From the NCBI GenBank assembly GCA_030378125.1, contig JAUCGN010000013.1:1-17487 (forward strand): a stretch of 17,487 nucleotides of DNA, in the 5' to 3' direction. A program made the translations under genes and the position numbers. Shown piece by piece: positions 1,660-17,487 of this stretch; the stretch's first letter is position 1, and every line of letters starts with the position of its first letter. Under the pieces are notes generated by a model. That model was not told the origin of the DNA. It worked only from the letters and a program-made list of their open reading frames with translations, and did not search any database. The stretch is from Thiotrichales bacterium HSG1 (GTDB lineage: Bacteria; Pseudomonadota; Gammaproteobacteria; Beggiatoales; Beggiatoaceae).

Positions 1660-4600
1660 GTGAATACAAAACAAACTATAGGAAGTTTCCTGCTTCTTAT
1701 ATTATTATTTTTATCACAACTGACTATGGCTTTGCCACCTTCTAAGCCGGGGATATTTCTCCATAATGAAGGTTCAGTTGTAACGGTTCGTTGGTATGCA
1801 GAAAATGCTGATGGTTATCGGTTATTTTATGCTCCTTATCCGGAAACAGAACCGGTAGAAATGATCGAGATGGGTACAAGAACAGAGTATTCTCTGCGAT
1901 TGCCTGAAAATTCAGCCTATTATGTAGCTGTACAGGCTTATAATCAAGACGGTGACAGTCCTTATTCTGATAGCAAGTATTTTATTCTTGATGAATTTGC
2001 TTTGATGGATAAAGTTGATGTGGATCCAGATATTTTACCGTTACGCTTTGATCATGTGGCAGTGGATGGTTACATTGCTTTTTTGCCTACTGAGGCAGAT
2101 GCTGAAGAACAGGCACAACGTTTGAGAACAGCACATAGTACAACTAATCGTTCTGAGCGTGCTAGTCAGCTTGGTTCGCCGGTTTTTTATGAGGATGGCA
2201 AAATTGGGTTGCGAGTTGATATTGCGCCCGGGGTAGTGGAGAGGGATTTGCTCTTGAATTTTTGCTTGGAAATAGGGGATGAATGTCGAACCTTATTGGC
2301 GTGGGATGATGGCACTGTTGGTTATGAGGAAACTCTGTTTGTACCTTCAGTTAAAACTGACGTGGAAAAAAGCCTTTATGCAGATTTGTTGATGCCTTCG
2401 GAAGTCATTACTGAATTGCGTAATCTTGTTAAGGTACCACGAGAGTTTAATTTGCGGATCACCGCGGTTAATTCGGTTAATCCACAAAATATTGCTGTAC
2501 ATGCGATAAATGTACCAATAGTTGATGTAGGTGGTCGCCAAATTCGTCGTGAAAAGGGAGAAGGAAAGATAACGTTTTTGGGTAAAAACTTTGGTAGTGA
2601 CAAATTTGGTGCTAGGTTTGAGATAGGTATGGAACTATATCCCTATGCAGGATATAAAGTTAGTAGAACAGATACTCACACTAAAAATGAAGAAGGTAAA
2701 ATTGAAACAAAAACTGAAAAAGAAAAAAAATTCACTGCTGGTATTCAAATTGGTCCAGAATTATCCCTAAAGACTACTTTATTTGGAAAAGAACTTACAA
2801 TGATTAGTGGTGGATTAAAGTTTACCAAAAATATTGGCCAAAATTTATCCGTTACTACTGAGTTAACGTTGGTTGATCTTGATTTAGGCAAGGTTGGAGA
2901 TACCATTGATGCTCTTGGAAAAATCGTTAAAGTTTTGAAACCTTTTTTGGAACCTGAGCAAGCAAAAAATTGGGATAAAACAATGGAAACATTAAGAAAA
3001 TTTCCAATAGGTACGTATTGCAAGAGTGAAGGAGGGTACAAACTTAAAAATCAATTGCCTAAAGATGAGCAAGAATCTTGTTCTGCAATACCTGAATTTA
3101 TAAATGAAGAAAGTGAAGGTGAGGATAAGAAGGATAACTCAGTAAGTGAGAATCTACCTAACGCTTTGATTAATATACCATTAGCAACAGCTATAGGTTA
3201 TAATGGTACCTTTCTAGTTTGGATTGTTCCAGTTAAACTATCAGCTGGTATCAATGGTACTGTGGGATTTAAAGGTGGTGGCGGTCTTGACACCGGACCA
3301 ATAGTGTTAAAGTTTACTGCTGGTCCTTACGCAGAGCTAGGTGCATATGCCTCTGCAGCAGTAACCTTATATCTGGCAGAAGCTGGCGTAAAAGGTGCGT
3401 TGACGATTATTACGGAAATGATTCAGCTTAATATGCATGTTCTCATCACAACAGAACCAAAGATTGCTGGAGTAATAAAGAATATTCTGAGTGGTCCATC
3501 TGGCAGTATATCACTTTATGCAAAAGCTTATGTACCACGTTGGGGAATGCCTCCTTGGGAACAAGAAGAATGGTTGTTGACTCTGATTGATTGGAAAACT
3601 TTTACTAGAGAAGACAGTTTGGTGAAATGGGGAGGGTATACGGAAACGTGTGGGCCACCAGAACCTGAAGAAGGGAAAGGCAAACTAAAAAGTATAGAGT
3701 CGTTATCATCTTTTTCTAAGGTATGCAAACCTAGCTGGCCTAGTTGGGATTCTGTGGGTATTTCAGAAACCGGCGAAGGCGACGGTAAAGTAGGTGGAAC
3801 GGTAAATTCACCGGGTGGGGTTGATATACCAAATCTTATAACAGATGAACCATCTGATGATGCAGAAGGATGGGCCTGTTTTTATATGGAAAGTGGCCAA
3901 AAACCTAGTTTCTGTTTTTCAGCAAACAAGGCTGAACCTGTAGTTGGATTCAAATTTTCGGGAGCTTTTAATGACAAAATTAAAGAGATAAAAGTTTGGA
4001 AAAACACCATAGTGTCTACTTATCAAGATATGGAGTTCAATGGAAAGGGTATATTTGTGCAGGGGCCCAGTTCTGGTGGTCCAAAAACGCATAGTTTAGA
4101 TCGTCAGAGGAAGCTTATTGGTATTGGTACAGATACTGTTTACGATATGAGTTCCGCTAAAATCATTTATGATAAGGAGCCTGATTCATCTGAAAAAGGA
4201 TGGGCTTGTTTTTATGAAGATGCTAGATATGAAGGTAAGCGTTTTTGTTTGCGAGTGTTAGAAGGGAAAAATACTTATAAAATTTCTGATGTCAACCAAC
4301 ATATAGCAGGTTTTCATGATGAAATCAGTTCTATCAAAGTTGGTTCACAAACAAGTGTTACCCTTTACAAGGACGCTAAATTTAAAGGTGACTCCAAAAT
4401 TCTTCAAGGTTCAGGTTATGTAGGTAATTTCAATGACGAAGCTGATTCTGTGGAAATATTCTCACCTGCACTAACAGGATGGGCCTGTTTTTATGAACAT
4501 ACAAATTTTGGTGGTAAGGAACAGTGTTATGAAATAGAAACTGGGCAAAATGGTCGTTGGGTTCCTTGGGTTGGTGACAATATGAACGACGAAATCAGTT

Positions 4601-4740
4601 CTATTAAAATGGGACCAAATATAGAAGTTGTAATTTATGAACACTCAAATTTTGGAGGAAATTCCAAGACTTTTAATAGCTCAGGATATGTGAGTGGTTT
4701 CAATGATGAAGCGAGTTCTTTAAAAATTAGATTCAAGTAA
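1660..4740 (+). CDS. large exported protein with FN3-like module and three C-terminal beta/gamma-crystallin domains
   Basis: A 1026-residue protein starting at GTG, supported by AGAGGA nine bases upstream. It has a signal peptide (hydrophobic FLLLILLFLSQLTMA, cleaved near residue 24) and then an FN3-like module at about 25-112 (DGYRLFYAPYP, YYVAVQAYNQDGDS) that closely parallels the previous gene. Residues about 113-720 are beta-rich with Gly-rich stretches (GFKGGGGLDTGPIVLKFTAG) and match no family I can name. The C terminus carries three repeats opening with GWACFY at residues 737, 847 and 940. The last two contain the beta/gamma-crystallin calcium motif (N/D)(N/D)xx(S/T)S in both halves or close to it: HDEISS, NDEADS, NDEISS, NDEASS. 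The first repeat is degenerate (NDKIKE). Beta/gamma-crystallin modules of this kind occur in secreted bacterial Ca2+-binding proteins and inhibitor I36-like proteins. A secreted, Ca2+-stabilised surface or matrix protein is inferred. Confidence 0.8.
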   Translation: MNTKQTIGSFLLLILLFLSQLTMALPPSKPGIFLHNEGSVVTVRWYAENADGYRLFYAPYPETEPVEMIEMGTRTEYSLRLPENSAYYVAVQAYNQDGDSPYSDSKYFILDEFALMDKVDVDPDILPLRFDHVAVDGYIAFLPTEADAEEQAQRLRTAHSTTNRSERASQLGSPVFYEDGKIGLRVDIAPGVVERDLLLNFCLEIGDECRTLLAWDDGTVGYEETLFVPSVKTDVEKSLYADLLMPSEVITELRNLVKVPREFNLRITAVNSVNPQNIAVHAINVPIVDVGGRQIRREKGEGKITFLGKNFGSDKFGARFEIGMELYPYAGYKVSRTDTHTKNEEGKIETKTEKEKKFTAGIQIGPELSLKTTLFGKELTMISGGLKFTKNIGQNLSVTTELTLVDLDLGKVGDTIDALGKIVKVLKPFLEPEQAKNWDKTMETLRKFPIGTYCKSEGGYKLKNQLPKDEQESCSAIPEFINEESEGEDKKDNSVSENLPNALINIPLATAIGYNGTFLVWIVPVKLSAGINGTVGFKGGGGLDTGPIVLKFTAGPYAELGAYASAAVTLYLAEAGVKGALTIITEMIQLNMHVLITTEPKIAGVIKNILSGPSGSISLYAKAYVPRWGMPPWEQEEWLLTLIDWKTFTREDSLVKWGGYTETCGPPEPEEGKGKLKSIESLSSFSKVCKPSWPSWDSVGISETGEGDGKVGGTVNSPGGVDIPNLITDEPSDDAEGWACFYMESGQKPSFCFSANKAEPVVGFKFSGAFNDKIKEIKVWKNTIVSTYQDMEFNGKGIFVQGPSSGGPKTHSLDRQRKLIGIGTDTVYDMSSAKIIYDKEPDSSEKGWACFYEDARYEGKRFCLRVLEGKNTYKISDVNQHIAGFHDEISSIKVGSQTSVTLYKDAKFKGDSKILQGSGYVGNFNDEADSVEIFSPALTGWACFYEHTNFGGKEQCYEIETGQNGRWVPWVGDNMNDEISSIKMGPNIEVVIYEHSNFGGNSKTFNSSGYVSGFNDEASSLKIRFK
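3868..4737 (+). repeat. three tandem beta/gamma-crystallin coding repeats
   Basis: Three near-identical 18-base segments, GGATGGGC(C/T)TGTTTTTAT at 3868, 4198 and 4477, mark the start of each repeat unit. A second conserved segment, GA(T/C)GAAATCAGTTCTAT, occurs in units 2 (near 4319) and 3 (near 4589). Units are about 280-330 bases. DNA-level conservation suggests fairly recent duplication or gene conversion, with the first unit the most diverged. Confidence 0.75.
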
Positions 4741-10748: not shown

Positions 10749-11201
10749 TTACCAACATTTATCACTTGGTTGTTCAGCATTATCATTAGCTATCTTATCA
10801 CCAGCTTGATCTATAGTAAAAATAATACAACTGGTGTCTTCTGTTTGTGATCTAACGGCTTTTGCAGTTATTGTATAGGTATCATTAGTACCAGTCAAGC
10901 TAAGTTCATAATGACCATTGTATATATCTAATTTAGGATTTTTGGATACAAAAGTTTCCCCTTCTTTTGCAAAACCAGCTTGTTGAGCATTCAGACCGAC
11001 AAGGGTTGTAGCATAACGATTATTTTCAACATAAAAGTTTTCTTGCAGCTGCGACAATTCCAATAGAGATGCTTTTGCTTCAAGGCGGTTACTGGTCAAT
11101 ACATGTTGCCGATAAGAAGGATAAGCTACAGCAGTTAAAATAGCTATAATTACCACCACTATCATTAGTTCAATTATAGTAAAACCTTTATCTTTTATCA
11201 T
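10749..11201 (-). CDS. pilE: type IV minor pilin, PilE-like
   Basis: A 150-residue type IVa prepilin. The leader MIKDKG is followed by the prepilin peptidase site G6-F7 and the hydrophobic helix FTIIELMIVVVIIAILTAVA, with the conserved mature Glu5 at E11. The rest is a pilin-like globular domain with QENFYVENNRYA, a motif common in minor pilin PilE and related proteins. A C-terminal Cys pair (C125 and C149) should form the D-region disulfide loop. In Pseudomonas, pilE lies directly downstream of pilY1 in the fimU-pilVWXY1E minor-pilin cluster, where these proteins form the priming tip complex; the same order is seen here. Two miniature elements separate it from pilY1, and the nearer one ends just before the pilE leader, leaving only 15 native bases plus an 8-base duplication before the ATG. 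Confidence 0.9.
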   Translation of the reverse strand: MIKDKGFTIIELMIVVVIIAILTAVAYPSYRQHVLTSNRLEAKASLLELSQLQENFYVENNRYATTLVGLNAQQAGFAKEGETFVSKNPKLDIYNGHYELSLTGTNDTYTITAKAVRSQTEDTSCIIFTIDQAGDKIANDNAEQPSDKCW

Positions 11202-11216
11202 ATGTTTTTTCCAATT

Positions 11217-11322
11217 AAGATTTGGGTAGTCCTAAACTAAGTAGTGTTAAACCTACTACGTTATTGAAACCTAATAGGTTTTTTGAGGTCATCACTACAT
11301 TATTTAGGAATACCAAGATTTG
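11217..11322. mobile_element. miniature inverted-repeat element A with 8-bp target duplication
   Basis: The element is 90 bp (11225-11314). Its 22-base ends, 11225-11246 and 11293-11314, are inverted repeats identical at 18 of 22 positions, beginning GGTAGTCCTAAA on one side and reverse-complementing to GGTATTCCTAAA on the other. It is flanked by a perfect 8-bp direct repeat AAGATTTG at 11217-11224 and 11315-11322. It encodes no protein, so it would need a transposase in trans. It lies immediately upstream of pilE. Confidence 0.85.
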
Positions 11323-11340
11323 AACACTGAAGTATTATTA

Positions 11341-11405
11341 ATAATATTTGGAGTCCAAACTTTAGTTTGACAATACCAAGATAAATCTTAGACTCCAAGT
11401 ATTAT
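11341..11405. repeat. cloverleaf-like palindromic segment between the two miniature elements
   Basis: Arms of 15 bases (11341-11355 and 11391-11405) pair with one mismatch, sharing TTGGAGTC/GACTCCAA. Inside them are two perfect small hairpins, CAAACT-TT-AGTTTG (11356-11369) and AAGAT-AA-ATCTT (11378-11389). AATACCAAGAT at 11372-11382 repeats the right junction of element A (11309-11319). It may be a degenerate third copy of the same element family or a structured RNA within the pilY1-pilE transcript. Confidence 0.5.
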
Positions 11406-11409
11406 AGTT

Positions 11410-11515
11410 CATTATTTGGTAGTCCTGCAATGCATAGTGATAAATCTATTAATTACTTGACATTTAACAGCTTTTTTAGAACAAACACTATTCTGTGCAG
11501 GACTACCCATTATTT
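11410..11515. mobile_element. miniature inverted-repeat element B with 8-bp target duplication
   Basis: The element is 90 bp (11418-11507), the same length as element A. The 22-base ends, 11418-11439 and 11486-11507, are inverted repeats identical at 18 of 22 positions, with a perfect outer 12 (GGTAGTCCTGCA) and an inner ATAGTG. A perfect 8-bp direct repeat CATTATTT flanks it at 11410-11417 and 11508-11515. The right duplication covers the last Lys codon and the TAA stop of pilY1. There is no coding capacity. Confidence 0.87.
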
Positions 11516-14500
11516 CTGTAACCAAAATATTCTAGTTGGCGGTACAGCTTCTACCAATGGTTGTTCATAACCAACTTGTACTGCTCTATCTCCAGTATTG
11601 GTGTACATAACAACCGGATCAAAGGCTAAGGTAGAAACATCTAATGAACGATCAGAACCTTCATCACCACGCTTATCTTCATCGAACTCCTCACTTTCAC
11701 CTTCTTCTTTCTTATCAAAAGCCGGTCCACCATCTAACAAGTTGATAGCATAAAAACGACTGGTACCCGGATTAAATGTTCCACAACTACCACTGGAAGT
11801 TTTACCAGAAGAGTAAGATGGTGGTACATAAGTAATGAAAATTACATTATTTTCAACAATAATTGGCCTACCTAAACCTTTCTCTCCTATCCAAGAGCTA
11901 TCAGATTCTTGTAGATTAAAATACCAACCATCCTTATCTGTATCTGTCAAATCAATTGTGTTAGATGACCAGTTAGTGACATTAGCTAAATTATTTAATA
12001 AGATTGGTTTACTAAAATCAAAATCCTGCTCATTGTCGAGAATAGCATAAAATTGATCATGTGCATGGTATACGCCACCATCACCATTTCCCGGTGCGAG
12101 GGGATTAGGTCTAGCACCAGTAACTGCTGCTAAAATATTTTGGCCTTTCAAATTAGCTAAAGCAGGTGGATAAAAGAAACTACGTTTGTCTGGATCAGAA
12201 CCAGCAGCTAGTTTGGCTATGACTCCAGCTTTTTTTGGATCATCATCCTCTTTATCCAAATCAATTCTCCACAATTGACCACCAACATCACCTACATAAA
12301 TTCGATCAGTAACACCATCTCCATTAGTATCTTGTAAAGATAGATCGGAAGGGATCGCATATTTCATGTCTGGCAATACTAAATCAGCACCATCATCATT
12401 ACTAGCCCACCATAAAAGCTCACCACTTTCTGGTTCTACCATATAAATAGCATTACCCATAGTAATTTCTTTAGCTGGATTGAATTTACCTTCTTCTTCT
12501 ACAATCGGATCATAACCACCACCAAATACTACCAATCTACACCAAGGATAGTTACAATAACTTGAATTAACCTCTGTTATATTAGGGGCTGACCAAGTTT
12601 GCCCCAATTTATTAAAGCCATTTTCACCACCTTTAACAGTCCACATTAACTTAGGCAATCCATCCTTATCAGTTACATCAAGTGCATAGATATTTCTGCC
12701 TCCACGCCGCATACCAACAAACATGGTAGCAAAGTTACCGTTAGATGGGATAATTTTTCCATCACTAGTATTAATGAAAAAAGTAGGAGTAGCGTCAACA
12801 CCATAAGCATGAGTATCACCAACTTGATCTTTCATACCTAGTTGATTAATTAACAGTTCTTTAGGTAAGAAAGACCATTTTTCTTTACCAGTAGCAACAT
12901 CATTCATCCTAATTAGCCCATCATTAGTACCAACGAATAATCGGCTTTCTTCATGAGCATAACTTCCATCTTCACCTTCACCGGTTCCGTCATAAAAAAT
13001 TACCCTAGGGGTGCTATGCAATGGGTCAGAAAATGCCCAACGGTCACCATCAGCAATTCTGATAAAATCACCTGATTCCTCTTCTTCAGTATCTCCCTCT
13101 ACCGGTTCGTCTACCGATTCATCTACCGGCTCGTCAGTAGTAGTAGAAGAACCCTCACCTTCAGTGACATTTTTACCAATAATCCATTTTATCAAATTCT
13201 TAGCTTTTTCTTCCTTAGCAGCAGCCTCAGCAGCTTCTTCTTCAGGTGTTTTTGCAACTTCATTTTCTCCATCACCTGTACCACCTGCCATAAGCTCATC
13301 AACTAGTTGTTTTTCAAAAGAGGTAGTTGCAGAATCAAATTCTTGAATTCGATAGTTGCTTAAATTAGCATTGTTGTTAATGTTGGGGGTTAAAACACCC
13401 AAATAGGTATAAATTTCCCTTTCATCACTGTCTAATTCACCACCCATACCACCTGCTGTCACATTACCACCATCACCCGGATCACTCCAAAAACTAGTGC
13501 TTCCATCAGAAATTTGACCCTCTTCATTGGTGGCTTCATTACCGTTAGCATCTTTTAAGCTACCATCTTTATACTGGTATCTTTTGATGTTACCATACCA
13601 ACGAGGTTCAGGTTTAGGTCTGAATACAGAATAATAAATATCGTCTTTATGTCTCAAATTGTTGAGATTGTTAACCGATATACTTGGTGCAGCAAATGAA
13701 CTATTAGTTGTTGTTGCTTGAGCACTTATATTGCTGAAAGCGGTTGATAATTCTTCGACAGTTTTGGCTAAATAAAAATTACGTCCACTACATTTTTCAT
13801 CATTACCGCCTCCGGGCGAAGCCAATCGACATAGATAGTCAACTGCTTTAAGATTATCTGTAGTATCCTCTAAATCTTTGACGTACTCACCAGGTACTGG
13901 AACAAGCTGAGATTTGGCTATATATTTGATTGTTTTACCGCTAGTACTAATCGTTGTGGCACCTTCAGTTGTATCAAAATATCCTCCCATTTTAGGTCCA
14001 ACAACATAATCCTCTCCCACTTTATATTTACCTAACCAAGCAGTTCCTAATTGGAAACCAATAGTATGAACAACTATGTTTTTCTTTTGATTCAAATAAT
14101 CAGCTAAATCAATACCACATTTTTCACTTCTGGAAATGTCAACTACTTTTCCGTTTAGGATAAAAGAGTCAACACATTCATCACTACCCAACAAGGATTT
14201 AACATTAGCACTTTGGTTAGCAGATTGTTCTGCATTAACATTAGCTCTACCATCTGTGAGTAATACAATATGACTACTTTGACAACTACTAGTTGACTGA
14301 ATCGGAGGTGTATATTTTGCCGAACCAGAAACTACTTTCTCGCCAGCACACTCACCTGCATAAGGATTCATATTAATATTACAGCCACCTGGGACATCAT
14401 TTTCGCTATCATGTGTAGCTGGATGGCTAACTAAGTGAAAAGATCGGTTATTACGGGTTTTTCCATTAACAACATTTTTACCTAAATAATATTGAGCTGA

Positions 14501-17487
14501 TTCAAACAACGCACCAACAATTGGAGTAGAACTATTAGGGATTCGCATCCTTTTGACTAAGGTTTGCAAACGTCTGCGTACCGTCAAAATATCACCCTCA
14601 CCATCTTCTCCTAATTTACCTTTAATTTGGATACGCAAACTAGCAGCAAGAGCTTGATCTTTATCGAAGGCAATTATATCTCGTCGGCCGGAACCCTTTA
14701 CAAAGAAAAAAGCATCATTATAGGCTTCCCATCCTGGTTGATTAACTATCTCCTGGAGTATACTAGCGAGATTTGGTGTTCGATAAGTTTTGCCTTGTTG
14801 CCAAACACCTGGTTCCCATTCAACAGTGCTGGTTGCTTTCCTTGAACTAAGGTCAAAATCTTCGCCAGAAAAGTCTTTTGGTTCAGAAGACAGTTCACCA
14901 TAAACATTGAAGGTAGCATTGTCTTGATTAGGATTTCCTTTTTTGGCATTTACTATCAAATGGGCCCCAACAACTTCAGCACCATTACCGATAGGAAGTG
15001 ACCTAAAATGAAACCCGACTAAACGTTGCTCTCCACTACGCACACCGGTTTCCAGTTCATGACTCAGCATAAATACTTTACCGTTTTCAGTACCACTTAT
15101 TTTTTCTTCTCCATCATCAAGTTGTTCTGAAATTTTAGAATAATAGGTTTGGTTTACACAACCACCACCTGGTTTTATATCTTCAGTATCAAATCTAATT
15201 CTAAGTTCTGGAGAAAGTCCAGACATATAGTCAAATGATGAAGCTTTACGAATTGAGGTTAAATCATCTGAAGAAATAATAAACGCTAAGTCACCACCAC
15301 ACCAACTACTACCATCCACAACTTCTTGGATAACAGTTTTCAACTCTGGGCTTTCGTAAGTTAATCCTTTGCTCCAACTATTTGGCGACCATGATACTGA
15401 GGCACTTGTTAGACTACGATTGCTTATATTAGATGGCTCTTCAGTAAACACGTCAGCAGTGGTAGATTCAGCATGAATAGTGAGATTTGTACTACTACTA
15501 TTATCCTCAGCACTGGTAAAAGTTATATAAGCACTTTCAACTCTAGCACCACGCGGTACATCAATAGCTTCAAATCGTAATCCTACCTTTTGTTTTTCAG
15601 CTATTTCTTCCTCAAAAGCAATTTTATAAGCTATTTCTAATCTAGGAAGAGTTGTAGTATTTGTGTTAAGATCAACATACGGGGCAATATTTCCACCAGT
15701 AGAACTATGTGGGTCTAGTGTTGTGACAACCCTTCTAAATCCAACGCTATCAGGAAGTTCTTCATCTGAATCTCTAGTAGCTTCTGTCGTGAAGATAAAA
15801 ACTACATTATTTTTTCTTTTCCAATCATCTCGGTCAATTACTTTCTGTAAAATGGTAGAAAGGTCTGGAGTAGTAAATTTAATACAATCAGGATCGGTTA
15901 TAATACCATTCTCATCTTGAGTACAATATTCACTTGGTGCATCTCCCTCGCCTTCCCAAATATTTTTTAAACCATCAGGTAGACTACTAACTCCATCCCA
16001 ACTTGTGTTTTCATCCATTGCAGACGGTAACTGTGGAACGTTGTTCCATTGTATTTTTGGTGTTATTCGGTCGCGTATGTATGTACTGCTAGCTGGTTCT
16101 GATGGCTCAAACAATCCATAGCTATTAGTAAAATCCCTAGGATTACCCAAGTCTTCAGCATGTATGGATAAATTTAAATTTTTTTTACCATATGTAGTTG
16201 AATCAGTACCATTTTGGTGAGTAAAAATAATTTTAGCACTAAGGATTTCAGCACCTTTTGGAAGTCCTAATTTTTCAAAATGTACCCCAACTATAGCTTC
16301 AGTCCCTTCACAGACGAATTTCTGTCCCGTTACACATCTTCTGCCAAGACGGATTTGTGTGTCTTCTAAATTATTTTTCCACCCAACAGCAGCATCGAAA
16401 TGTCTTCTTTGATATTTTAAATTATCTTTGCTTTCAATTATGGAGGTAATGTTTCCAGTGCTTTTCCAAGTTATGCGTAATTTAGGGGGCATAAATCCAC
16501 TAGTATTGTCGCTGGAGTAAAAACTTCTGCTTTTACTTACGTCAGGAGAATTGTTATTACTTTTAAGCAATATAACTAAACTGTTATATGGGTGCTGTTT
16601 ATCAATCCCACTATTCCAACCATCTTGATCTATTATTGCTTGAACAACATTCTTAATGTTGGGACTATTAAATGTTTGCCCATTACTAACACTTGGTATT
16701 TCATTCCAATCATCTTTCACAGCACTACCATTCTCATCGGTGATAAAAGGGAAGTTAGATGTTAGATAAGCTGGGTCATATGTGAATTCTTTTCCAGATG
16801 GATCTCTAAAATACAAACCATCATTAGCGGCTGCGTAAATGCCCATGTCAAAATTATCAATTGCAGTTTGTGAACTATCACTGGTAAACTCAATATCAGC
16901 ACCGATAACTTCTGCATTTTGAGGAATATTAATGTTCTTAAACCTCAATCCAACTAATACGTTAGTATCAACCGGCACTTTATTGGAATCTGTTGGTCTA
17001 GTACCTAAATAAATCGAACTATTACCATTTGGAATTCCCTTGAGAAGCATTTTATGATTGCTGTCTAAAAGTTCTTCTCCATCATTTGCACCATTATCCT
17101 CACCAACAAACACAGTGGTAGTAATAGAATCTCCATCTACCTCATTGCCCCCATAGGAAACTACCTCATTTTCTCTGGTGGTCATATCTAAGTTATCGTC
17201 ATATAAAAACATTTCACCAGAATCTTCATACTGTTCAGCATCATCTGAGTTTTGAACGATAGATACAGTGATATCCCCCATAGAATCTTTCTCTTCACCT
17301 TCCAATTCACTAACATCTTTATCAATAAATTCGACTGGAAATATAATTGGAGCATTCACCGGTGGCTGTGGAACTTTATTAAGTGCTGCAAAACGTCCCA
17401 ACCCCACATTAACATTTTCTATTGTGTCTAACATTTGGTCCAACGCTTCTTTTAATACATCTATACGGCGTTGGTCGGTAGGTTTGC
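11510..17487 (-). CDS. pilY1: giant PilY1-type pilus tip adhesin / assembly protein (5' end outside window)
   Basis: The minus-strand frame is open to the right edge (KPTDQRRIDVLKEAL reads in before the TTG at 17443), so the gene continues outside and at least 1991 residues are visible. Numbering below starts at that TTG. Residues 1-45 are part of a von Willebrand A domain (MLDTIENVNVGLGRF). It resumes near 945 with STPIVGALFESAQYYLG and HIVLLTDG (about 1061). The metal-binding DxSxS would lie upstream. Between them sit four related modules centred on VG(L/V/F)(R/H)F at residues 164, 385, 620 and 809. An acidic Ala/Glu-rich linker (about 1395-1450) precedes the C-terminal PilY1/PilC beta-propeller (about 1465-1977; DPLHSTPRV, RLFVGTNDGLIR). 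A Ca2+ loop is D1705-T-N-G-D-G-V-T-D1713. PilY1 primes pilus assembly and mediates adhesion and surface sensing from the pilus tip or cell surface. Confidence 0.92.
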   Translation of the reverse strand, partial: KPTDQRRIDVLKEALDQMLDTIENVNVGLGRFAALNKVPQPPVNAPIIFPVEFIDKDVSELEGEEKDSMGDITVSIVQNSDDAEQYEDSGEMFLYDDNLDMTTRENEVVSYGGNEVDGDSITTTVFVGEDNGANDGEELLDSNHKMLLKGIPNGNSSIYLGTRPTDSNKVPVDTNVLVGLRFKNINIPQNAEVIGADIEFTSDSSQTAIDNFDMGIYAAANDGLYFRDPSGKEFTYDPAYLTSNFPFITDENGSAVKDDWNEIPSVSNGQTFNSPNIKNVVQAIIDQDGWNSGIDKQHPYNSLVILLKSNNNSPDVSKSRSFYSSDNTSGFMPPKLRITWKSTGNITSIIESKDNLKYQRRHFDAAVGWKNNLEDTQIRLGRRCVTGQKFVCEGTEAIVGVHFEKLGLPKGAEILSAKIIFTHQNGTDSTTYGKKNLNLSIHAEDLGNPRDFTNSYGLFEPSEPASSTYIRDRITPKIQWNNVPQLPSAMDENTSWDGVSSLPDGLKNIWEGEGDAPSEYCTQDENGIITDPDCIKFTTPDLSTILQKVIDRDDWKRKNNVVFIFTTEATRDSDEELPDSVGFRRVVTTLDPHSSTGGNIAPYVDLNTNTTTLPRLEIAYKIAFEEEIAEKQKVGLRFEAIDVPRGARVESAYITFTSAEDNSSSTNLTIHAESTTADVFTEEPSNISNRSLTSASVSWSPNSWSKGLTYESPELKTVIQEVVDGSSWCGGDLAFIISSDDLTSIRKASSFDYMSGLSPELRIRFDTEDIKPGGGCVNQTYYSKISEQLDDGEEKISGTENGKVFMLSHELETGVRSGEQRLVGFHFRSLPIGNGAEVVGAHLIVNAKKGNPNQDNATFNVYGELSSEPKDFSGEDFDLSSRKATSTVEWEPGVWQQGKTYRTPNLASILQEIVNQPGWEAYNDAFFFVKGSGRRDIIAFDKDQALAASLRIQIKGKLGEDGEGDILTVRRRLQTLVKRMRIPNSSTPIVGALFESAQYYLGKNVVNGKTRNNRSFHLVSHPATHDSENDVPGGCNINMNPYAGECAGEKVVSGSAKYTPPIQSTSSCQSSHIVLLTDGRANVNAEQSANQSANVKSLLGSDECVDSFILNGKVVDISRSEKCGIDLADYLNQKKNIVVHTIGFQLGTAWLGKYKVGEDYVVGPKMGGYFDTTEGATTISTSGKTIKYIAKSQLVPVPGEYVKDLEDTTDNLKAVDYLCRLASPGGGNDEKCSGRNFYLAKTVEELSTAFSNISAQATTTNSSFAAPSISVNNLNNLRHKDDIYYSVFRPKPEPRWYGNIKRYQYKDGSLKDANGNEATNEEGQISDGSTSFWSDPGDGGNVTAGGMGGELDSDEREIYTYLGVLTPNINNNANLSNYRIQEFDSATTSFEKQLVDELMAGGTGDGENEVAKTPEEEAAEAAAKEEKAKNLIKWIIGKNVTEGEGSSTTTDEPVDESVDEPVEGDTEEEESGDFIRIADGDRWAFSDPLHSTPRVIFYDGTGEGEDGSYAHEESRLFVGTNDGLIRMNDVATGKEKWSFLPKELLINQLGMKDQVGDTHAYGVDATPTFFINTSDGKIIPSNGNFATMFVGMRRGGRNIYALDVTDKDGLPKLMWTVKGGENGFNKLGQTWSAPNITEVNSSYCNYPWCRLVVFGGGYDPIVEEEGKFNPAKEITMGNAIYMVEPESGELLWWASNDDGADLVLPDMKYAIPSDLSLQDTNGDGVTDRIYVGDVGGQLWRIDLDKEDDDPKKAGVIAKLAAGSDPDKRSFFYPPALANLKGQNILAAVTGARPNPLAPGNGDGGVYHAHDQFYAILDNEQDFDFSKPILLNNLANVTNWSSNTIDLTDTDKDGWYFNLQESDSSWIGEKGLGRPIIVENNVIFITYVPPSYSSGKTSSGSCGTFNPGTSRFYAINLLDGGPAFDKKEEGESEEFDEDKRGDEGSDRSLDVSTLAFDPVVMYTNTGDRAVQVGYEQPLVEAVPPTRIFWLQK
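13101..13136 (-). repeat. three 12-bp tandem repeats in the acidic linker of pilY1
   Basis: ACCGGTTCGTCT, ACCGATTCATCT and ACCGGCTCGTCA follow each other without gaps. On the coding strand they encode DEPV-DESV-DEPV. Because the unit is a multiple of three, slippage would change linker length without shifting frame. Confidence 0.8.
14600..17130 (-). repeat. four tandem beta-sandwich-like modules encoded within pilY1
   Basis: Each module has the same three landmarks. The first is a strand pair, such as VGLRFKNINIPQNAEVIGAD, VGVHFEKLGLPKGAEILSAK, VGLRFEAIDVPRGARVESAY or VGFHFRSLPIGNGAEVVGAH. The second is a helix-like block ending in W (NIKNVVQAIIDQDGW, DLSTILQKVIDRDDW, ELKTVIQEVVDGSSW, NLASILQEIVNQPGW). 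The third is a closing strand (PKLRITW, PRLEIAY, PELRIRF, ASLRIQI). Spacing between the first landmarks is 221, 235 and 189 residues. The pattern resembles DNRLRE/CBM96-like surface modules, but that assignment is from pattern memory only. Confidence 0.75.

Follow-up and report, generated by a model that had tools for sequence, protein, structure and literature searches.

What are the two 90-bp units that lie between a pilY1-like and a pilE-like gene of Thiotrichales bacterium HSG1, and how did they come to stand there? The window that we analyzed, a stretch of 17,487 nucleotides, is contig 39 of a 2.22-Mb draft genome (63% complete, 457 contigs). A sequence-only reading had described the two units as related miniature elements, each exactly 90 bp long and flanked by its own 8-base duplication, in a gap of 308 bases. 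The gap indeed measures 308 bases between the pilE start (11201) and the pilY1 stop codon (11510-11512), both elements have exactly the length given, and the duplications, AAGATTTG for element A and CATTATTT for element B, form two perfect pairs (Table 1). Their 22-base ends, said to match at 18 of 22 positions in both cases, do so in element A but match at 19 of 22 in element B. The pilY1 stop codon is kept despite its overlap with the right copy of CATTATTT. Too short to encode a transposase, the two elements are non-coding and bounded by terminal inverted repeats, as MITEs are.

Table 1. Features of the pilY1-pilE region, in positions of the window.
Feature	Position	Strand	Remarks
pilE-like type IV pilin gene, downstream neighbor	10749..11201	-	PF16732 ComP_DUS 67.9 bits, PF07963 N_methyl
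Left target duplication of element A, AAGATTTG	11217..11224	.	identical to 11315-11322
Element A: MITE, family A copy, 90 bp, 22-bp ends 18/22	11225..11314	+	
Right target duplication of element A, AAGATTTG	11315..11322	.	
Third dispersed repeat, palindromic, ~47 bp	11350..11396	+	outside IS1-MITE family
Left target duplication of element B, CATTATTT	11410..11417	.	
Element B: MITE, family B copy, 90 bp, 22-bp ends 19/22	11418..11507	+	
Right target duplication of element B, CATTATTT	11508..11515	.	overlaps pilY1 stop codon
pilY1-like gene, upstream neighbor, open at window end	11510..17485	-	PF05567 T4P_PilY1

Elements A and B agree at 58 of 90 ungapped positions. The kinship of their interiors, previously noticed by eye, holds up as well, with agreement at 27 of 46 interior positions, a value that none of 20,000 interior shuffles reached. 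More broadly, 42 distinct 90-bp elements from the own, sister and public genomes align without a gap; this alignment comprises only exact 90-bp elements with a related interior, 3 of 45 distinct 90-bp elements (L103, L105 and L110) having been left out for their different interior and one borderline case (L106) kept. Judged by this alignment, A and B are diverged members of one 90-bp superfamily rather than two unrelated inventions.

Multiple copies with differing target duplications, as expected of MITEs and as the sequence-only reading had anticipated, abound in the own genome. Searches at E<=10 gave at least 63 matches to A and at least 75 to B, self-matches and end-only matches included (40 of 61 first-look candidates were scored for A and 40 of 53 for B, and the match counts are lower bounds), and the exact pattern GGTAGTCCTRNAN5TAGTG occurs 92 times, compared with zero times in a reversed control. 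The top 30 loci of each search, 60 in all, together with regions added by further search (L001-L080), yielded by script 58 distinct complete short elements of 71-91 bp, of which 30 measure exactly 90 bp and nine 72 bp, the others having lengths within the same range. In family A, the 72-bp form would fit the loss of one of two interior repeats spaced 18 bp. Within this set, a perfect 8-bp duplication flanks 17 of the 58 copies, at 17 different targets that are 85% A+T, as compared with 0.1% in mispaired flanks. When a match at 7 of 8 positions or better is accepted, the count rises to 23/58 (six beyond the perfect ones; mispaired flanks 1.3%). Perfect duplications of 6, 7 or 10 bp flank none of the 58 copies, and one of 9 bp flanks a single copy. 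By family, the perfect 8-bp duplications are distributed as 11/27 in B, 5/17 in A, 1/7 in A2 (a sister of family A) and 0/7 in the others, family B including three more copies at 7/8 and one with a 9-bp duplication only. The remaining 35 copies do not have an 8-bp duplication at 7/8 or better, which could result from age, from recombination between copies or from adjacent deletions, a known property of IS1.

One copy was caught in an especially informative position. A family B element at C337:3950-4039 interrupts an IS1-family element 43 bases from its start and is flanked on both sides by AAAAAATA (L205, 908-1090, equivalent to G000:C337:3907-4089). At the same site, the IS1 copies of C421 and C362 are uninterrupted and carry a single stretch, TAAAAATA, one base different from AAAAAATA. 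The nested copy thus shows directly that a 90-bp unit can insert and that 8 bp are duplicated when it does, and the C421 and C362 copies provide the uninterrupted counterpart that is looked for in MITEs.

The pilY1-pilE locus itself can be compared with four relatives of the same genus (G001-G004), in all of which the two genes are adjacent, with pilY1 stop and pilE start separated by ~60 bp in G001 and G003, ~78 bp in G002 and ~416 bp in G004. None of these four gaps contains an element of the A/B family with its ends, so that the comparison with sisters, proposed by the sequence-only reading, came out in its favor at the level of the locus, the sequences being too diverged for base-level proof at the insertion site. 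Within the G004 gap, a 33-bp stretch resembles the inner hairpin of certain MITE copies at 79% (best E 1.4e-4); the palindrome in which it lies is a different one, with TATAG-type ends. The MITE family is present elsewhere in the genomes of G001 and G002, and the exact MITE end pattern is absent from the whole genome of G003. Since the sister gaps are devoid of these elements, the insertions in the window look specific to its lineage.

Which mobile element do the ends belong to? The IS1-like parent, initially no more than a guess, is supported by Pfam and NCBIfam matches on elements with the same type of end. Two 778-bp IS1-family elements of the own genome, C362:2057-2834 and C421:811-1588, are 94.5% identical and have the 22-bp GGTAGTCCTGAACAAAGTAGTG at both ends. 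The C362 copy combines the DDE transposase domain of IS1 (PF03400, DDE_Tnp_IS1, 65.4 bits, cut-off 24.1) with an InsA-type zinc ribbon in its first frame (PF03811, Zn_ribbon_InsA, 28.6 bits, cut-off 26.1). The reading frames of both copies, as seen in their translations, are broken, and neither copy has a recognizable 8-bp duplication of its own. There are ten DDE_Tnp_IS1 matches in the own genome, and the C337 copy, which shows no PF03400 match at E<=0.001, is not among them. Full-length members of the IS1 family that share this type of end do occur in the own genome, as the sequence-only reading had anticipated, but no intact one was seen in this 63% complete assembly. Six DNA matches to the IS reach a contig end (C4, C14, C32, C274, C415 and C441), so that an intact multi-copy parent could have been lost in assembly. 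The end of contig C105, beside a family B copy, yielded no readable product when translated in one frame.

Relatives complete this picture. A genome from another genus of the family (G018) has a 743-bp relative with GGTAGTCCTGTATGGGTAGTG ends and the 8-bp duplication GAAGCATC, which matches the NCBIfam IS1 equivalog NF033558 with 137.9 bits (cut-off 100), and another genome (G023) has an 817-bp element with the duplication ACTTTTTT and a transposase split over two frames; both show the GGT ends and 8-9-bp duplications of the IS1 family. Among 30 IS1 loci of the own genome and relatives inspected by script (L122-L151), paired GG...CC ends with a duplication were found in two. Several PF03400 matches from relatives are free of stops. 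Among the four relatives of the genus, the strongest PF03400 match, in G001, covers the model in part (46.4 bits, positions 22-117 of the model), and G004 and G012 contain many MITEs and only fragments of IS1. In G012, a member of the same family as the window genome, a single weak IS1 fragment was found; 17 of the copies, among the 22 scored out of 121 candidates, have the same score against element A (86.9 bits), which suggests a recent burst.

The consensus ends of the MITEs share 16-20 of 22 positions with the parent end. We rejected the idea that families A and B are simple internal deletions of the 778-bp IS, as only the ends match when the interiors are compared by eye. Separately, two internal-deletion derivatives of the 778-bp IS1 occur at C26:3573-3704 (132 bp; L076, 1074-1205) and C169:7341-7460 (120 bp; L063, 5342-5461). 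Both retain the left terminus together with the first part of the transposase gene region, and represent a second route to non-autonomous elements.

The elements rarely lie within long reading frames. Open frames of at least 40 codons on both sides, on one strand, surround 1 of the 58 elements as compared with 63% of random points; at 60 codons the figures are 0/58 and 50% of random points from the same loci. This replaces an earlier count (1/58 inside a predicted ORF versus 73% of random positions) that can miss genes split by an element. Loss of the insertions that hit genes would be expected to leave such a distribution. A preference for the 3' ends of genes was considered and dropped, with 64 of 101 neighboring gene ends being 3' ends, close to the 86 of 142 that the types of gap in the same loci predict. 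A scan of positions 11100-11700 gave three promoter sites versus 2.9 expected, hence no promoter excess and no reason to claim a mobile promoter. With regard to the genes of the window, the pilin at 10749-11201 matches a family (PF16732, ComP_DUS) named after a DNA-uptake receptor. Positions 1660-4740 encode a 1026-aa protein with C-terminal beta/gamma-crystallin-like repeats (PF03995, PF08964), and no Pfam match at E<=0.001 was obtained for its upstream neighbor (209-1645).

Beyond the own genome, a search of 40 genomes, the own one included, at E<=0.001 detected B-type matches in five and A-type matches in seven, two of the latter with a single partial match only. A scan of genome contigs with an end plus RTAAA (one genome per species, GTDB r220) retrieved 32 stretches: 15 from Thiomargarita (one assembly), six from Parabeggiatoa, five from Thioploca, three from Halobeggiatoa and three from other groups, these last three without a paired element. 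A perfect 8-bp duplication accompanies nine of the 29 paired elements listed for L081-L121, a set that includes one place twice (L090). The superfamily is found in Thiomargarita, Parabeggiatoa, Halobeggiatoa and Thioploca with a near-constant length and the inner hairpin. Thioploca and Thiomargarita also contain 135-142-bp elements (L084, L095, L107 and L108) with the same IS1-type ends and a different interior, which contains GGGTTA/TAACCC-type repeats.

We consider it very probable that A and B are MITEs with IS1-type ends that arose by two insertions with 8-bp duplications, an IS1 transposase acting in trans. According to this model, A and B, which have no gene of their own, would carry 22-bp ends of the type recognized by an IS1-family transposase. 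They would have entered the AT-rich intergenic DNA between pilY1 and pilE in two separate events, each of which would have duplicated 8 bp of target, and the transposase would have come in trans from an IS1-family element with GGTAGTCCTGAACAAAGTAGTG-type ends, such as those whose 778-bp copies lie elsewhere in the genome. That this IS1 transposase, and not another one using such ends, moved A and B in trans is what we infer.

The alternative that survives best adds to this history instead of replacing it: the host might since have taken the MITEs into use as hairpins transcribed between its genes, for instance as REP-like elements that stabilize mRNA 3' ends. The near-constant length (30 of the 58 complete copies measure exactly 90 bp), the fact that at most one of the 58 interrupts a long open frame and the inner hairpin speak for it. 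This inverted repeat, at positions 25-39 and 43-57 of the 90-bp unit (the same in element A), has 78.7% of its cells paired in the 42-row alignment, compared with 31-50% when slid, and shows two-sided changes at 9 of 15 pairs, in 55 cells versus a shuffled mean of 28.6, a value reached by none of 500 shuffles. In the outer stem, end positions 13, 14 and 16 of 22 are mostly unpaired, left and right ends differing consistently. However, the measures least misled by relatedness, namely the number of pairs with a two-sided change and the number of pair types, are unremarkable: shuffles reached them in 28 and 100 of 500 cases for the inner stem, and in 411 and 345 of 500 for the whole structure. 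The RNAalifold consensus contains the outer stem and omits the inner one, and the share of 3' ends among the neighboring gene ends is near the expected one. Moreover, palindrome-directed mutation can also produce paired changes. The paired changes of the inner hairpin are hence no more than suggestive, selection on the fold being possible, and we hold adoption by the host to be unlikely. A related and bolder proposal is that the 90-bp length and the compensating inner hairpin have been kept across genera because the fold is selected, either as the shape of a substrate for IS1 trans-mobilization or as a transcribed hairpin tolerated or used by the host, while the outer ends track the locally active IS1 transposase. 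As the robust covariation measures do not exceed the shuffles, we give this proposal an equally slim chance.

Could the MITEs have been moved by a transposase from outside the IS1 family that likewise duplicates 8 bp of target, such as that of IS1595, ISL3 or IS66? Several IS families do generate duplications of this length. An ISL3 case with 8-bp duplications is described, in the accessible part of the source, for Microcystis (PMC11448079). Nonetheless, Pfam and NCBIfam assign to IS1 the transposases of the elements that bear such ends, in the own genome as well as in another genus, and no element of another family with these ends came up, the transposase searches having covered the IS1 family; we regard this option as very improbable. 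Finally, the notion that the 90-bp units are not mobile DNA but a regulatory RNA or hairpin conserved at this locus is barely tenable: both units fold well on the pilY1-pilE strand (z -6.2 and -5.6, none of 200 shuffles being as stable) and the inner stem has its paired changes across 42 distinct copies, but the whole window has no Rfam match at gathering scores, no terminator-like site was found in 11100-11700, the units are absent from the locus in the four sister species, and copies are scattered over dozens of unrelated places, 17 of the 58 complete ones each having a perfect target duplication of its own, so that a locus-specific conserved RNA element is refuted.

The two MITEs are not the only repeats in the gap. 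A third one, at ~11350-11396 between A and B, had been overlooked by the sequence-only reading. This GGAGTCC...GACTCC palindrome has 14 other matches at E below 0.01, in 13 places of the own genome, folds strongly (z -5.3) and is unrelated to the IS1-type MITEs. In several places (L177, L179, L181, L184 and L075, as well as the pilY1-pilE gap of L153), this 47-bp repeat forms part of a larger element with a right end similar to TATTTATCTGAAAAACTATA; the copy of the window is without the TATAG-type end. This end recalls the dsrA-intron MITE of Ca. Thiomargarita nelsonii, which ends in TATAG according to the accessible part of its description (PMC4853749).

These observations place the window elements in the context of familiar mobile DNA. 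With the IS1 family (PF03400/PF03811, NF033558) they share GGT ends and 8-bp duplications, and the full elements with such ends, of 743-817 bp, encode an InsA-like zinc ribbon and the IS1 DDE domain; unlike them, the window elements are gene-less and their interiors differ from that of the IS. The ends also differ from those of enterobacterial IS1. Searches of the open-licence literature brought up no paper on IS1-derived MITEs of this bacterial group and nothing on Halobeggiatoa with transposase, and a search with GGTAGTCCT gave, among the matches listed, only papers unrelated by title. The coexistence of many MITEs with decayed IS1 copies raises a testable question, namely which transposase keeps them moving. 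Comparable cases are known from other bacteria, among them MITEAba12 of Acinetobacter, which is reportedly longer than the window elements. As described in the accessible text, it likewise has only its ends in common with the proposed parent IS, but that parent is ISAba12 and the duplications are of 9 bp (PMC6382973). A 187-bp MITE of Microcystis, as far as the available portion of its report goes, resembles ours by its 8-bp duplications, mainly intergenic location and more than 30 copies, and differs by its 9-bp imperfect ends and its ISL3-family parent with GGCTCTTCG ends (PMC11448079). The closest comparison concerns Ca. T. nelsonii, a giant sulfur bacterium whose genome also abounds in MITEs; in the accessible sections of the 2016 study, the hupL and dsrA-intron MITEs are reported without a parent, along with palindromic repeats of unknown identity, and the authors suspect mobile elements to be a main cause of the many contigs in such assemblies (PMC4853749), a fragmentation to which the 90-bp family is a candidate contributor. 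The hupL MITE, at contig positions 1357-1561, has 10-bp direct and 19-bp inverted repeats and no ISfinder parent in that text (PMC4853749), as opposed to the 90 bp, 8-bp duplications, 22-bp ends and probable IS1 parent of the elements described here, which these descriptions set apart from the T. nelsonii MITEs. The superfamily of the window is a new and well-anchored one within a familiar type of mobile DNA: a smaller family, different from the hupL and dsrA-intron MITEs, and tied by its ends, its duplications and its nested insertion to a named IS family.
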